From Clostridiales bacterium (GTDB lineage: Bacteria; Bacillota; Clostridia; Lachnospirales; Lachnospiraceae), in the NCBI GenBank assembly GCA_023663185.1, contig JAMPHY010000012.1:33264-97263 (forward strand): a DNA stretch of 64,000 nt, given 5' to 3'. The notes beneath the pieces are model-generated. The model saw nothing but the letters and a program-made list of their open reading frames with translations. It searched no databases and was not told the origin of the DNA. Shown here one piece after another: positions 7,526-41,977 of the stretch. Every line of letters begins with the position of its first letter. Within the stretch, counting starts at the first letter, position 1. A program made the position numbers and the translations under genes.

Positions 7526-8569
7526 ATGAATTTAGAAGAATACAAGGGAGTATATGTCTTTGCGCAGCAGGTAGACAATGAAGTAAGCAGTATCGCATTT
7601 GAGCTGCTTGGTAAAGCCAAAGACCTCGCAAAAGATTTGAATACAGATGTAACGGCAGTACTTATAGGTTCAGAAGTTGGAAGCCTTGCAGATAAGCTTG
7701 CAGAGTACGGCGCAGATAAAGTTATAGTTGTAGATGATCCGGAATTAAAGGTATATAGGACAGAACCTTATACACACGCTCTGGCGTCTGTAATTAATAA
7801 ATATAAACCGGAAATTATGCTGGTTGGCGCAACCGCAATCGGAAGGGATTTAGGACCGAGAGTTTCCGCAAGAGTCGGCACAGGCCTGACAGCAGACTGT
7901 ACAGTTCTGGAAATCGGTGATTTTCCGCTTCAGGCTATTCCGGGACAGGAGCAGAAGCACAATCAGTTATTGATGACTCGTCCTGCATTCGGCGGAAATA
8001 CAATAGCTACAATCGCATGTCCTAATAACCGTCCTCAGATGGCTACGGTGCGTGCAGGCGTTATGCAGAAAATTGCGCCTGTTAAGGGAGCAAAAGCTGT
8101 AGTAGAGCAGTTCAATCCGGGCTTTACGCCTGATAATAAATATGTTGAAATTCTCGACGTAGTAAAGGCAGTTACCGATACCGTAGATATTATGGACGCT
8201 AAGATTCTTGTATCAGGCGGACGTGGCGTAGGAAGCCCTGAGAACTTCAAGATTCTTGAGGACTTGGCGGAAGTGCTCGGCGGTACGGTAAGCTGTTCTC
8301 GTGCGGTAGTTGATTCAGGCTGGAAGCCGAAAGATTTACAGGTTGGACAGACAGGTAAAACAGTACGTCCGAATGTATATTTTGCAATCGGTATCTCAGG
8401 AGCAATCCAGCACGTTGCAGGTATGGAAGAATCTGACATTATTGTCGCTATTAATAAAGATGCAGATGCGCCTATCTTTGATGTGGCTGACTACGGTATC
8501 GTAGGAGATTTGAATAAGATTGTTCCTAAGCTGACAGAAAGCATTAAGGCGGAGCTTGCGGCAAAATAA
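7526..8569 (+). CDS. etfA: Electron transfer flavoprotein, alpha subunit
   Basis: EtfA partners EtfB and holds the mobile FAD in its C-terminal domain. The 347-residue protein has an N-terminal ETF domain (VYVFAQQVDNEVSSIAFELLGKA). The FAD signature region contains LVSGGRGVGSPENF, VGQTGKTVRPNVYFAIGISGAIQH and INKDADAPIFDVADYGIVGD. The ATG at 7526 is best spaced from the GAGAGGTGA site; two in-frame GTG codons lie just upstream. It is the last gene of the butyryl-CoA operon. No butyryl-CoA:acetate CoA-transferase or kinase is encoded here, so the final step must lie elsewhere. Confidence 0.95.
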   Translation: MNLEEYKGVYVFAQQVDNEVSSIAFELLGKAKDLAKDLNTDVTAVLIGSEVGSLADKLAEYGADKVIVVDDPELKVYRTEPYTHALASVINKYKPEIMLVGATAIGRDLGPRVSARVGTGLTADCTVLEIGDFPLQAIPGQEQKHNQLLMTRPAFGGNTIATIACPNNRPQMATVRAGVMQKIAPVKGAKAVVEQFNPGFTPDNKYVEILDVVKAVTDTVDIMDAKILVSGGRGVGSPENFKILEDLAEVLGGTVSCSRAVVDSGWKPKDLQVGQTGKTVRPNVYFAIGISGAIQHVAGMEESDIIVAINKDADAPIFDVADYGIVGDLNKIVPKLTESIKAELAAK

Positions 8570-8613
8570 TTATTAAGTTAAGGATTGGATAAAGTAGTAA
8601 TAAAGCAAGGATA

Positions 8614-8663
8614 AAGGAGTTGCAGCATTAGCGAGTAAAATCGTGAAGCGGCAGCTCCTTTTT
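8614..8663 (+). terminator. Rho-independent terminator of the butyryl-CoA operon
   Basis: AAGGAGTTGC (8614-8623) pairs with GCAGCTCCTT (8651-8660), and a TTTTTG run overlaps the stem end. The 27-base loop is long for a terminator. Confidence 0.7.
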
Positions 8664-8690
8664 GTTTATGGTTTGTATATGACTGGACGC

Positions 8691-8838
8691 GGCATGAACT
8701 CATATGTTTCCCCTTGAGGCACGCTCTCGCTCCGTGTAAAATCGCAGCGGTACTAAGCTCGAAAGCTTGAAAAGCAGCTTTTTCACTAAGTACCGGCGTT
8801 TTACAAGGACCTCAATGGGAAACATATGAGTTCATGCC
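8691..8838. repeat. Long palindromic element A (148 bp)
   Basis: Two perfect 22-bp arms (8691-8712 and 8817-8838) are extended inward by TTGAGG/CCTCAA (8714-8719 / 8810-8815). On the 5' side an unpaired insert beginning CACGCTCTCGCTCCG (8720-8734) follows. Pairing then resumes with TGTAAAA/TTTTACA (8735-8741 / 8799-8805) and CGGTAC/GTACCG (8748-8753 / 8790-8795), around an inner AAGCTCGAAAGCTT region. No ORF or target-site duplication is evident. It shares its insert and its AGCGGTAC and CTAAGTACCG boxes with element C (18916-19055), and the insert with 41923-41938. The rest of the 8570-9015 gene-free stretch holds the operon terminator and the promoter at 8948. Confidence 0.85.
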
Positions 8839-8947
8839 GTTATAGGCTGTGAATAGTGACGGGTTCATGTTACTTATATGCTTAATTAATCTTGACAATA
8901 GCTTTCATTATGAAACTCACAGTTGATTTTATGAAAAAATGCGTCTA

Positions 8948-8976
8948 TTGAATACAACCAATGCTTTTGTTATGAT
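8948..8976 (+). promoter_or_regulatory. sigma-A promoter of the XRE-ABC operon
   Basis: TTGAAT (8948-8953) and TATGAT (8971-8976) are separated by 17 bp, about 40 bp upstream of the XRE gene start. Confidence 0.6.
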
Positions 8977-9015
8977 ACAACCAGAAAGCGAAAAAGAGAA
9001 AGGACGGTGTTTTTC

Positions 9016-9906
9016 ATGTCAAGTATATTAAGTGAAAGAATTGCTGCGCTGCGGAAAGAGCGGGGGCTGACTCAGGAGCAGTTGGGAAAATTGGTAGGCG
9101 TATCCTCGCAGGCTGTTGGTAAATGGGAAAAAGGCGGCGCGCCGGATATAGATTTGCTGCCTATTCTTTCTAAGCAGTTAGGAGTGAGTATTGATGCGCT
9201 CTTTGGCATGGAAGCGGGGGAGCAGGAGAAAGAAAGGGTAGATGCGGTAGTTGGACGCTGGCTTAGAGGCTTTCCCGATGAAGAGCGTATGAATCAGTTC
9301 TGCCATATGGTTTGGGCGGCGGTAAAATATTTTCTGCCCGCCGGATATGATTTGCCCGACTTGGGGTATTTGGAAAGCTGCCAGCCGGAAGTGTCCAAAG
9401 ATTCATTAATGTATAGTAAGCTGCGGCATGGCGGCGGAATTTTGTTGGACGTACATGCGGAAGATATGAATTTTGTTACTCTTTGGCCAGAACCCAAAAC
9501 AGGTTATGCCGCGTGGCTTGCTTCAAAAGAGGAGTATCGGCAGTTGTTTTCATTATTGGCGAAGCCGGGCTGTCTTGAACTGTTAGAAGATTTATACAGT
9601 AGGAAAATCCGCTACTATGTGCCGGAGATGGTATCTAAGCAATCAGGGCTTCCCATAGGGCAGGTTCGGGAGCTGTTAGACGAGCTGACAGAATGTAATA
9701 TCCTGCAGGTTTTAGAACTGGAATTGACCGAGGGAGAAGTCCGCGCCTATCAGCTTACTGAGCCTTTGGCGTTTGTGCCGTTTTTGTATATGGCGCGTGC
9801 CTTGATACAGGGCAAAATGAACTACCTTTTATTATATGATGATGATGTGCCTATATTCAAGAAGAAAGCATGGAAGGAGAAGAAACAAAATGAGAAAGAA
9901 TGTTAA
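9016..9906 (+). CDS. XRE-family transcriptional regulator
   Basis: The 296-residue protein has an N-terminal helix-turn-helix of the Cro/CI type (about residues 4-60: LSERIAALRKERGLTQEQLGKLVGVSSQAVGKWEKG). A long C-terminal region follows that I do not recognise, possibly a sensor domain. The ATG at 9016 is well spaced from AAAGGAC; an in-frame GTG at 9007 would sit too close. The stop codon overlaps the start of the downstream ABC exporter by 17 bases, so the two are co-translated, and the regulator probably controls that exporter. The ligand is unknown. Confidence 0.85.
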   Translation: MSSILSERIAALRKERGLTQEQLGKLVGVSSQAVGKWEKGGAPDIDLLPILSKQLGVSIDALFGMEAGEQEKERVDAVVGRWLRGFPDEERMNQFCHMVWAAVKYFLPAGYDLPDLGYLESCQPEVSKDSLMYSKLRHGGGILLDVHAEDMNFVTLWPEPKTGYAAWLASKEEYRQLFSLLAKPGCLELLEDLYSRKIRYYVPEMVSKQSGLPIGQVRELLDELTECNILQVLELELTEGEVRAYQLTEPLAFVPFLYMARALIQGKMNYLLLYDDDVPIFKKKAWKEKKQNEKEC

Positions 9907-11539
9907 AAAGACTGCCACCATGATACATTATCTTAATAAATTCAAAGCTCCCCTCATATTATCATTGCTGCCTCTCTTGATTGTCTGTGGAATGCAGGCA
10001 GCGGCGAGCTTGATTACGGCGGAAGTTTTTCAGCAGGTATTTGAGAAAGATATAGACGGGCTGGCTATCTGGATGCTTATCCTAGCTGGAGCATGGTTTT
10101 TGATTATGGTATTTAGTGCGCTAGAAGGACTGCTTCAAGGCTGGAGTATCCGTAAGCTTAACAATGCTGTACGGGCTGATATGACCGCAACTCTCTCTGT
10201 TATGGATTATAGTCACTATCATAGCGCTGATACCGGAGAATATCTTTCCCGTTTTACTAATGACGTCAATCAGATAGAAAATATGGCTTGGAAACCGTTT
10301 TTTCAGTTTGCGCAAGCTGCGGCAATGGCAGTATTCAGTGTGATTGCACTTTTGACAATCCATTGGTCGCTGCTATTAGCGGCGTTAGTAACTACTTTGG
10401 TGATGGTGTTTGTCCCGCAATTATTCAATAAAAAGATGGAGCGGTTGGGTGATGTTTGTACTAAAGAACAGGCTGAGGCTACAGGTATATTCAAAGATTT
10501 GCTCTCCGGCTGGGACGTACTTAAATCTTTTGGGAAAAACAGAAGGTTTATCGATGGTTTTCATCATGCCAGCGAGCAGATTGAGCGGCCAAGATTCCGT
10601 CTTGCGTATACGAAGGGCTGCGTAGAGGCGGGGGTAGGCTGCGTCAACGTTCTTTGCCAGCTATTGATTACCGGTTTGGTAGGGCTGCTTGCCATCTGGG
10701 GCTATACTCAGGCAGGTTCAGTGGTGGCAGGCGGTAATTTGTGCGGTATGTTATCAAATAGTTTGGGAAGTATGGCGGGACTATTGCTGGCATTTTCATC
10801 ATCGAAGCCATATTTTGAGAAGATTACGGTCCATGCCGAAGACTTGCAAATTAGGAATGGTATAGAAATGGAAAAAATTAACAGTGAAATTTCCGTAGAA
10901 AATCTCAGTTTTGGGTATGGTGAGAAGTCCATTTTTCAAAACTTATCTCTTCAATTTAAAAAGGGCGGTAAATATGCGCTCACAGGTCCTTCCGGCTGTG
11001 GAAAGTCTACATTGCTGAAAATTTTGCTGGGCTGGATTACAGAATATGGCGGAGAGATTTGCTTTGATGGTAAAAATGCTAAGGATTTCACCGCGGAACA
11101 GCTCCAACAGCATATGGGCTATATTGAGCAGAATGTGTTTTTATTCAATTCTACGATTAAAGATAATATTACCTTAGGGGAGACTTTTACAGATGAGAAG
11201 ATAGAGAAGGCTTTACATGACAGTGCCCTTATAGGAGACTTATCTTCAATGCCCGATGGAATCGAAACCGTTGTGGGCGAAGATGGCGCGAACCTTTCCG
11301 GCGGACAGAAGCAGCGGGTGGCGATTGCCCGCGCCCTAATCCATGACCGCTCCATTCTGCTTGTGGACGAGGGCACCAGCGCGCTTGATAAGGAGAATGC
11401 AGACATCGTGGAAAATAGCCTGCTTGCCAATCCGGAACTGACACTGATTTTGGTAAGCCATCATCTTACTCCTGAGAGAAAGGAACAGTTTAATCATGTG
11501 TATGAGTTACAGTCAGAAGTGCTTGCGCCTGTAAATTAA
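9890..11539 (+). CDS. ABC exporter, fused permease and ATPase (half-transporter)
   Basis: This is a type-I ABC exporter half-subunit of 549 residues. The N-terminal membrane domain (about residues 18-310) contains several hydrophobic segments. The C-terminal ATPase has Walker A GPSGCGKSTLL, the signature LSGGQKQRVAIARAL, Walker B SILLVDEGTSALD, and the switch His in LVSHHL. Such proteins export peptides, lipids or drugs as homodimers or heterodimers; no partner half-transporter is adjacent. The start at 9890 follows GGAAGGAGAAG, located inside the end of the XRE gene. Its 3' end overlaps the convergent anti-sigma gene by 27 bp. The substrate is not predictable from sequence. Confidence 0.9.
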   Translation: MRKNVKKTATMIHYLNKFKAPLILSLLPLLIVCGMQAAASLITAEVFQQVFEKDIDGLAIWMLILAGAWFLIMVFSALEGLLQGWSIRKLNNAVRADMTATLSVMDYSHYHSADTGEYLSRFTNDVNQIENMAWKPFFQFAQAAAMAVFSVIALLTIHWSLLLAALVTTLVMVFVPQLFNKKMERLGDVCTKEQAEATGIFKDLLSGWDVLKSFGKNRRFIDGFHHASEQIERPRFRLAYTKGCVEAGVGCVNVLCQLLITGLVGLLAIWGYTQAGSVVAGGNLCGMLSNSLGSMAGLLLAFSSSKPYFEKITVHAEDLQIRNGIEMEKINSEISVENLSFGYGEKSIFQNLSLQFKKGGKYALTGPSGCGKSTLLKILLGWITEYGGEICFDGKNAKDFTAEQLQQHMGYIEQNVFLFNSTIKDNITLGETFTDEKIEKALHDSALIGDLSSMPDGIETVVGEDGANLSGGQKQRVAIARALIHDRSILLVDEGTSALDKENADIVENSLLANPELTLILVSHHLTPERKEQFNHVYELQSEVLAPVN

Positions 11540-14311: not shown

Positions 14312-14963
14312 CATCACAAGTGCATATGGCAGAAAAAGAGTGCTAAACGGCGTTACACTGTGCGGCAGGCGTGGAGAGTGTATAGGCATAGTAGGATCTA
14401 ACGGCTGCGGCAAATCCACGCTGCTTTCCATTATGGCGGGAGTTCTGACATCACTGTCAGGAAGTATAAGTTATTATGGCAAAGACGCCCTTAAAAACCG
14501 GAGCGTTTTTAAGAAAATGACAGGTTATGTACCGCAGGAAAATCCGCTTATGCCTGAACTCAGCGTATACGATAATCTGCGCTTGTGGTATACGGATAAG
14601 GCGGAGCTTAAAAAAGAATTAGAGCAGGGTTTTTTACAGATATTAGGGATTCCTGAATTTATAAATACGCCTGTTTCTAAGCTCTCCGGCGGCATGAAAA
14701 AAAGAGTCAGTATAGGCATAGCGCTATCAGGTATGCCGCCCGTTTTGATATTAGACGAGCCGAGCGCAGCGCTGGATTTAGTATGTAAGGAAGATATCAG
14801 GCGGTATTTAAAGCTTTATTTGGAAAGAAAAGGAACTGTTGTGATTACGACGCATGAAGAAAGGGAGCTGGAACTATGCGACAGCCTGTATGTAATGAAG
14901 GACGGGCGGCTTAATGCGGTTGATAAGTCGCTGCGAGGCGAAGCGTTGACAGCGATGTTTTAA
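14289..14963 (+). CDS. ABC transporter ATP-binding protein
   Basis: The 224-residue ATPase has Walker A GSNGCGKSTLL (about residues 37-47), a Q-loop region (GYVPQENPLMPELSVYDNL), the signature LSGGMKKRVSIGIAL, Walker B PVLILDEPSAALD, and the switch His in TTHEERE. It resembles ATPases of ABC-2 exporters. Its start lies inside the end of the upstream regulator gene, with only a weak ribosome site, consistent with coupled translation. It probably powers the two ABC-2 permeases encoded at 16413 and 17663, although palindromic element B separates it from them. Confidence 0.9.
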   Translation: MNMIELTDITSAYGRKRVLNGVTLCGRRGECIGIVGSNGCGKSTLLSIMAGVLTSLSGSISYYGKDALKNRSVFKKMTGYVPQENPLMPELSVYDNLRLWYTDKAELKKELEQGFLQILGIPEFINTPVSKLSGGMKKRVSIGIALSGMPPVLILDEPSAALDLVCKEDIRRYLKLYLERKGTVVITTHEERELELCDSLYVMKDGRLNAVDKSLRGEALTAMF

Positions 14964-14971
14964 ATATTGGT

Positions 14972-15056
14972 AAGTTCAGGCAAAGTGAATAAAAACGTAG
15001 CTCCATGCCTGAAAAGCGGTAAGTCGCTCCTTATTTTATTCACTTTGCCTAAACTT
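14972..15056. repeat. Long palindromic element B (85 bp)
   Basis: Two 23-bp arms (14972-14994 and 15034-15056) pair with a single mismatch. The 39-base interior contains AAAAGCGGTAAGTCGCTCC, which shares TCGCTCC with element A and resembles the AGCGGTAC box of elements A and C. It lies in the gap between the ATPase gene and the membrane-anchored gene of the ABC-2 cluster. No T run follows the 3' arm, so it is not a classic terminator. Confidence 0.8.
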
Positions 15057-15080
15057 TAAATTATTTAAGGAGGTATTAAA

Positions 15081-18910: not shown

Positions 18911-18915
18911 CGTAA

Positions 18916-19055
18916 GTTGTACAATATATATAAAACAACGCAGGGTACTATGCCGCCGTCGGTACTTAGGCGCTGTACTTTAGCGCCTTATGTACCGCTA
19001 CTGGCGGCAACGTAGCGGAAGCGTGCCCTGCATTGTTTTATATATATTGTACAAC
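18916..19055. repeat. Long palindromic element C (140 bp)
   Basis: Perfect 23-bp arms (18916-18938 and 19033-19055) are followed inward by GCAGGG/CCCTGC (18940-18945 / 19026-19031), TGCCGCC/GGCGGCA (18951-18957 / 19003-19009), GGTAC/GTACC and AGGCGCT/AGCGCCT. The unpaired insert 19010-19025 lies on the 3' side. Read on the minus strand, the element matches element A: GGCACGCTTCCGCTACGT versus GGCACGCTCTCGCTCCGT, then AGCGGTAC, an inner hairpin, and CTAAGTACCG. It fills the gap between the second permease and mtnA. Confidence 0.88.
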
Positions 19056-19095
19056 GTAACTATTAAAGAATCTTATAAGCAAGAGGAGAACATAC

Positions 19096-41904: not shown

Positions 41905-41977
41905 ACATATGCTTACTGAAAAGGCACGCTCTCGCTCCTGCCATAAATAATTGCTGTATTTATTTGGCTTCATATGT
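41905..41977. repeat. Short palindromic element D with shared insert
   Basis: Outer arms ACATATG (41905-41911) and CATATGT (41971-41977) enclose an unpaired insert GGCACGCTCTCGCTCC (41923-41938), identical to the insert of element A over 16 bases. An inner stem (41940-41949 with 41957-41968) follows. It lacks the AGCGGTAC and CTAAGTACCG boxes, so it looks like a degenerate or truncated member of the same family. Confidence 0.6.

Follow-up and report, generated by a model that had tools for sequence, protein, structure and literature searches.

This locus raises the question of whether the 148-bp palindrome at positions 8691 to 8838 of the window, that is, of the whole stretch of 64,000 nucleotides analyzed here, is part of a mobile element or a folded structure maintained for its own sake. 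The reading that we favor, at a probability of roughly 0.55, combines the two: the palindrome, here referred to as element A, would be an old MITE copy that was moved in trans via its ends and that carries a conserved folded central module acting in single-stranded form. The initial annotation had described A as a palindrome with perfect 22-bp arms, and this is what we find. The arms (8690 to 8719 and 8810 to 8839; 30 nt) are 97% complementary, the outermost 22 pairs being perfect, and the predicted RNA fold of -78.1 kcal/mol (z, -11.4) was equaled by none of 200 shuffled sequences. Based on sequence, fold, and arm comparison, the 5' arm is delimited at 8690 to 8717 and the 3' arm at 8812 to 8839, both on the plus strand. 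Between them lies a conserved core (8718 to 8811, plus strand), which runs from the box GGCACGCTCTCGCTCCGTG through GGACC and was delimited by sequence, box search, and model; model R1 matches A at 8706 to 8823 with 91 bits.

The plan of the core, followed inward from the arms, consists of a GG/CC step, a mini hairpin GC(TYNC)GC, the paired segments P2 (TNC/GNR) and P3, and a CGY/RCG step with an AG bulge; inward of the bulge come P4 (CGGTAC/GTACCG), a TAAG/CTAAG region that contains an A.A mismatch, and, last, an apex that varies. In A, fold and alignment place the AG bulge at 8746 to 8747, adjoining the helix CGGTAC/GTACCG, while sequence and alignment place TAAG and CTAAG, the 5' and 3' sides of the conserved mismatch region, at 8754 to 8757 and 8786 to 8790 (all plus strand). 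The conserved insert on the 5' side of A had been described as unpaired; the insert is confirmed, but it is not fully unpaired, as a mini hairpin, GC(TCTC)GC at 8723 to 8730 (plus strand), can form within it according to the fold. Among 35 divergent copies in the alignment, the inner pair of this hairpin, which can be read directly in the rows, is C-G 30 times and T-A 5 times. Since the insert can form a mini hairpin whose inner pair changes, the centre of the element is a three-way junction.

Element B is a copy of A in reverse orientation. The shared boxes had been reported to recur at 18916 to 19055 with different arms, and indeed the 5' box is exact on the minus strand of B and the arms of the two elements are unrelated. 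The arms of B (18913 to 18956 and 19015 to 19058; 44 nt) are 86% complementary, and its RNA fold of -81.7 kcal/mol (z, -12.3) was again matched by 0 of 200 shuffles. Its core occupies 18944 to 19027 on the minus strand (sequence, box search, and model), flanked by an arm on the 3' side of the core strand at 18916 to 18943 and one on the 5' side at 19028 to 19055 (minus strand; sequence and fold), and model R1 matches B at 18932 to 19039 with 84.6 bits. The sequence TTGTACAA is present in B as a left copy at 18917 to 18924 and a right copy at 19047 to 19054, with no strand assigned; by comparison, the relative G007 keeps a single copy, which we read as the result of an internal deletion.

Within the window, the 5' box GGCACGCTNNCGCTNCGT has two exact matches, in A (plus strand) and B (minus strand), and one match with two mismatches, at 41923. 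The latter belongs to a truncated element (41911 to 41950, plus strand) that consists of an arm and the 5' box without the 3' half and that the model scores at 12.3 bits (E, 0.2). The 3.83-Mb genome contains 41 exact copies of the box (18 forward and 23 reverse), compared with 0 for the reversed control. When 30 box loci, representing 29 distinct elements of which one was seen twice, were folded, nearly all showed the common plan as judged by eye. Script sorting divided the 42 rows of window-genome copies into 35 of arm class I, which includes A, and 7 of arm class II, which includes B; among the class I rows, L035 carries arms of a third kind and L022-2919 repeats another row. In relatives, the same core is found under many further unrelated arms, and what the initial annotation had suggested to be a family of structured elements is one family with conserved boxes and changing arms. 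Several observations were made along the way. In variant cores (L015, L023, L027, L033, L039, L090, L105, L115, and L185), CTAAGTACCG gives way to CTAAAGTACAAG together with an additional small hairpin resembling CCACTTGCAGTGG. Head-to-head pairs of elements within about 350 bp occur at G000:C44:23730-24078, G039:C25:19038-19393, and G007:C94:34184-34454. Loci of the record JAMPHJ01 (L054, L058, L062, L097, and others), which is titled Muribaculaceae bacterium, have elements placed as in G017, a genome of the window's genus, and the title therefore looks wrong.

Further copies had been predicted for related genomes, and of the 295 genomes surveyed from the order, 30 had model matches. All 30 belong to the window's own family, of which 48 genomes were listed, and they cover 13 of the 129 genera in this survey, for which stricter filters were used. 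With at most 13 matches scored per genome, 11 of the 30 positive genomes had at least 10. A survey of the phylum gave 5 positive genomes out of 398. One of these, G677, belongs to another family, far outside that of the window, and has seven model matches (loci L345 and L350), for which transfer and an older origin are both possible.

The elements that carry the core are MITEs: they are short, non-coding, and repeated, with terminal inverted repeats and target-site duplications (end types 1 and 2, in relatives). The terminal repeats lie outside the arms and are of three types, namely, TAGRCAATTGCGAAACT (type 1), CACGGAAATCAATTTTCAGTCAGC (type 2), and GTTACTATTCACAGT (type 3). Matches to the type-1 end with no more than two mismatches numbered 21 in genome G000, 34 in G007, 86 in G039, and 109 in G098, compared with 8, 5, 4, and 4, respectively, for the reversed pattern. 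Class II copies carry type-1 ends (L210). Element A extends past 8691 to 8838 and has one recognizable end, GTCACTATTCACAG, at 8847 to 8860 on the minus strand (C3:42110-42123 in the genome), a degenerate type-3 end with one mismatch to GTTACTATTCACAG; with its end type judged from this single degenerate end, A itself would also be a MITE.

Target duplications differ between the end types. In a set of 162 elements, which were kept only where the arms matched at a score of at least 24, flanking direct repeats scoring at least 10 were found at 20 elements, versus 8 of 483 swapped flanks. When type-1 ends were set exactly, duplications were detected at 29 of 64 elements versus 2 of 1,261 swapped-flank controls; they were 9 to 14 bp long, with 11 bp (the mode) and 12 bp being commonest, plus one of 18 bp, and they occurred at 23 of 50 core-bearing elements, most of which are 205 to 230 bp in length, and at 6 of 14 coreless elements of 50 to 152 bp. 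Type-2 duplications (4 of 11 elements versus 0 of 110 controls) were all 9 bp. For type 3, the numbers were 1 of 11 versus 0 of 110, the threshold being reached by none of the 9 core-bearing elements and by 1 of the 2 that lack the core; the type-3 element L174 has an 11-bp repeat in the arm-matched set, and support for the end type of A thus consists of single cases. We also noted very short coreless palindromes, of about 50 to 110 bp, that consist of ends, with or without arms (L206, L207, L208, L214, L222, L224, L230, and L241 and, with type-3 ends, L162, L169, L172, and L071); some of them have duplications at their flanks.

Empty sites, which had been named as a check on the initial annotation, were sought in relatives, and two core-bearing elements of the window's genome proved to be missing in G011, where 214- and 204-bp elements are replaced by 3 and 13 bp between matching flanks that are 77 to 81% identical. 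We infer that these two gaps are pre-insertion sites. They are the two near-clean cases among four places compared in G011, the third (near L353:1322) not being clean and the fourth (9675 to 10268) being too complex to read; at the site of B, G011 shows no remnant in our reading. The gaps of G007 at A and B were considered as empty sites and rejected, as the outer parts of the elements remain and the gaps are read as internal deletions. Repetition and presence or absence between relatives are observed directly, and the family is very probably mobile. The initial annotation had set the palindrome against a decayed MITE, a contrast that is not supported, since the carriers have the terminal repeats and target duplications of MITEs and, in the case of one end type, an autonomous IS partner.

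This IS was found on two viral contigs, on which inverted pairs of type-1 ends span 1,796 and 1,767 bp, measured end to end. Each copy (L330 and L334) has one transposase frame, of 501 and 516 amino acids, respectively, and L330 has an additional antisense open frame of similar length. The transposase scores above the Pfam cutoff for DUF772 and, in one of the two copies, for DDE_Tnp_1, while the NCBIfam cutoff for IS1182 is missed (68 and 69 bits versus 270); the type-1 partner is a distantly IS1182-like IS of 1.76 to 1.80 kb. The ends and duplications of the carriers fit a DDE-type IS, and the type-1 elements are best read as having been moved in trans by this one. Type-1 carriers are identified by ends, duplications, and a cognate IS, and type-2 carriers by ends and duplications. 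Duplications flank four of six IS copies inspected (L337, 12 bp; L340, 13 bp; L341, 10 bp; and L330, 10 bp with a one-base offset), and none was seen by eye at L338 and L334. A protein search of 11 genomes detected relatives of the transposase in four, G098 (at a contig end), G011, G305, and G345 (a weak fragment), and none in G000, G007, G017, G039, G059, G348, and G336; G305 has three copies, one with a broken frame. MAG assemblies drop repeats. Several MAG contigs of G098 end within elements or IS (L310, L312, L313, L314, L251, and L336), and the overlap between the ends of L251 and L336 makes it probable that MAG assemblies lack IS copies. Related proteins are encoded in plasmid records of Roseburia sp. 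831b and Butyrivibrio proteoclasticus B316, and a plasmid record of Agathobacter rectalis has a partial match to the transposase (38%).

An autonomous partner was found for type 1 only and not for end types 2 and 3. Other candidate movers were considered and rejected. The four matches to DDE_Tnp_1 (PF01609) in three of five genomes are in no case bounded by any of the three end types, and none of 12 lone type-1 ends inspected adjoins a transposase, the neighboring frame at L259 looking like FeoB by eye. For an autonomous element in which a gene splits the core, the candidates were 14 of 172 distinct 5' boxes (up to two substitutions) that lack a 3' box, and these were read as the ends of stretches, truncated or variant copies, and chance matches in coding sequence (such as L077 and L083). 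Viral contigs gave no exact match to the core pattern and nine end matches; apart from the IS copies L330 and L334, the other seven have no strong partner. A blastn search with A against plasmid and phage records gave no match, and two 41-kb plasmid stretches gave no match to the core model.

The initial annotation had named a known transposon or MITE family with matching terminal repeats and transposase as the explanation that would remove the need for its own. The carriers are indeed MITEs with such ends and, for type 1, a transposase; however, ends and transposase leave the core unexplained, because it is common to two or more end types whose duplications differ in length and because coreless siblings have target duplications too. 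The core is a separate conserved module, which some elements carry and others of the same end type lack, and its three-way junction, including the AG bulge and TAAG/CTAAG region, is found again under other, unrelated arms and ends.

Covariation within the core was assessed in an alignment made from sequence only (A2), comprising 26 divergent copies of 32 representatives drawn from 147 of the 162 elements and omitting L056, L080, L139, L140, L141, and L185, mostly variants at the apex. Constancy of the 5' box in A2 is a product of selection by the search pattern, while the 3' half was free. Paired cells amounted to 85.2%, compared with 72.4% after shuffling, and two-sided changes were found in 104 cells (48.1 shuffled) and at 15 of 27 pairs, giving a covariation score of 0.353 versus 0.153 for shuffled and at most 0.149 for slid controls. 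Further pair types showed no excess (40 versus 40.1 shuffled). Column pair 27-111 is paired in 26 of 26 copies and displays all four pair types. The core model was built on A2 and then run free of the pattern, and the resulting alignment A3 holds 36 model matches, including L279 from the window's genome and L124 and L141, which had first been found by the box pattern. In A3, two-sided changes occur at 25 of 27 pairs, and the score is 0.598 versus 0.190 shuffled and at most 0.135 slid, the alignment being model fitted; changes in the outer GG/CC can be read directly in its rows. Because the core covaries beyond both the shuffled and the slid controls, selection for structure is likely there, and we are fairly confident that it acts on the fold of the core. 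That shape is kept more than sequence in many related bacteria suggests that the fold does something.

The form in which the core acts is less clear. In the core helices of A2, G.T pairs outnumber A.C pairs by 33 to 6, although two columns in which the 5' T is fixed by the search pattern account for 18 of the 33, leaving 15 to 6. The model-fitted alignment gives 62 to 10, in a fit that leans to RNA by construction. When the 162 copies were folded singly, the core and apex gave 37 to 18, which turned into 7 to 15 when distinct contexts were counted, and the inner arms gave 58 to 113, so that the arms yielded no sign of RNA. The distinct-context count and the pattern-fixed columns weaken the evidence for one strand, and folding of the core as one strand is favored but not secure; we put RNA as the acting form at somewhat below even odds. 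The fold could instead act as DNA, with a one-strand hairpin, formed during replication or by cruciform extrusion, being recognized by a recombinase, a transposase, or a host protein and aiding spread or retention. We consider this rather unlikely, though it accords with several results: the carrier is a mobile DNA element with long arms, single-stranded DNA tolerates G.T pairs too, and orientation relative to genes is unbiased in the larger set (58 versus 50), where the bias of a first set (61 versus 38) disappeared. On the other hand, the duplications at 6 of 14 coreless elements with the same ends indicate that this step does not require the core, and replication-strand bias is not clear, flank GC skew being positive at 80 and negative at 68 of 148 elements (Wilcoxon P, 0.057).

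It is also conceivable, but distinctly improbable, that the elements are plain MITE debris, in which arm-to-arm correction during replication keeps the arms paired and the cores are alike by descent alone, without selection. The initial annotation had taken preserved pairing under changing arm sequences as a sign of selection for structure, an argument that stands for the core and is weaker for the outer arms on their own. In 30 of the 35 model matches, the two arms of an element match at a level reached by 0 of 1,190 swapped pairs, although arms of different lineages are unrelated, and this could reflect either selection for pairing or arm-to-arm correction; as correction alone could maintain it, outer-arm pairing is weaker evidence than the core. 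Folding is, moreover, inherent to MITEs, and the loss of inner parts of A and B in G007, with the outer parts kept, is expected of unstable palindromes. However, the two-sided changes in the core exceed both sets of controls, and correction predicts neither a conserved unpaired AG bulge and mini-hairpin loop nor the sharing of one core between two end types whose duplications differ in length. That the elements are common intrinsic terminators, leaders, or riboswitches is highly improbable. Most copies are strong hairpins between called genes (146 of 162), but no terminator-like site with a T tract after the stem was found at A (8550 to 9010), copies show no excess in convergent gaps (24 of 146, and 32 of 173 in a larger set), orientation is not fixed, and the elements are present or absent between relatives.

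To return to the reading of A as an old MITE copy with a folded central module, transposases that recognize MITE ends would move the short non-coding DNA in trans, and the conserved module at its centre would ride on several unrelated sets of ends. The module would act single stranded, somewhat more likely as RNA, produced by read-through from neighboring genes, than as extruded DNA, and a protein may bind it via the mini hairpin, the AG bulge, and the TAAG/CTAAG region. The long arms would close the module, their sequence being free to drift while pairing stays, and the benefit would go to the element, for example, if effects on mRNA processing or stability made intergenic insertions tolerable. 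Folding of MITEs is usually attributed to their inverted ends; here the core needs an explanation of its own because it covaries in detail and is shared by carriers that differ in their ends and in the length of their duplications. A bolder proposal, which we regard as possible but less likely than not, is that the folded module itself is the unit of selection, one core, in the form of RNA or single-stranded DNA, having repeatedly been joined to unrelated ends and being recognized by a conserved host factor of Lachnospiraceae. Such a core, if real, would be a gene-free parallel to IStrons. The core copies constitute a large natural data set on what mobile non-coding folds do, and with a likely type-1 transposase in hand, the role of the core in movement is testable.

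At the gathering score, Rfam 15 has no match in the window; below it, the models hit were those of miRNAs and sRNAs, the best reaching 23.7 of 200 bits (E, 0.0084). The core is not described in the literature found, including the accessible part of PMC8632094, with supplements and most subscription papers outside this scope, and the unnamed palindromic RNA candidates from microbiomes in PMC8040213, as far as its available text goes, could include this element. Like ERIC, Correia/NEMIS, RUP, and QMITE, the elements are small and non-coding, with terminal repeats, target duplications, and movement in trans. For these bacterial MITEs, folding has been described, with transcripts predicted to form long hairpins, as here, and ERIC affects mRNA stability; in contrast to the MITEs described in the available text of these sources, one covarying core is common here to unrelated ends and different duplication lengths (PMC2229807 and PMC10969869). 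IStrons, according to the accessible part of PMC4227781, join one structural RNA class to several IS families. The joining of one structured class to several transposon ends is similar, but an IStron comprises a self-splicing group I intron together with an IS, whereas the elements here have no coding gene and, in the window, no Rfam intron match at threshold. The MRSC-65-2 motif, a multicopy covarying bacterial structure thought to be selfish, for which an RNA or DNA form was left open, differs in that, by its description in the available text, it forms one long stem carrying a UYCCGG repeat and occurs across diverse phyla, whereas the core here has a three-way junction and other conserved letters (PMC11109978). 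REPs have a length of 20 to 40 bp, a GTAG tag, and Y1 transposases (available text of PMC3733652). Both REP/RAYT systems and the present family are repeated palindromes in many copies; unlike in REP/RAYT, the ends and duplications here fit a DDE-type IS, and the type-1 partner has DUF772. A further comparison is with bcr1, a small mobile Gram-positive repeat with a proposed folded core. The likeness is one of description, and the host, Bacillus cereus, differs. In the available text of PMC3733652, bcr1 is named as a MITE.

Lastly, the window contains a second repeated hairpin, at 14960 to 15068, in which the arms change around a conserved centre, AATAAGGAGCGACTTACCGCTTTTCAGGCATGGAGC, that differs from the core of A. 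Copies of it were seen in L016, L052, L071, L073, L090, L105, L113, L122, L153, L208, and L212, amounting to 13 distinct copies after filtering of loci, and the copy in L153 lies at the same place in G007. A 143-bp type-1 element, L088, has a centre similar to that of this hairpin.
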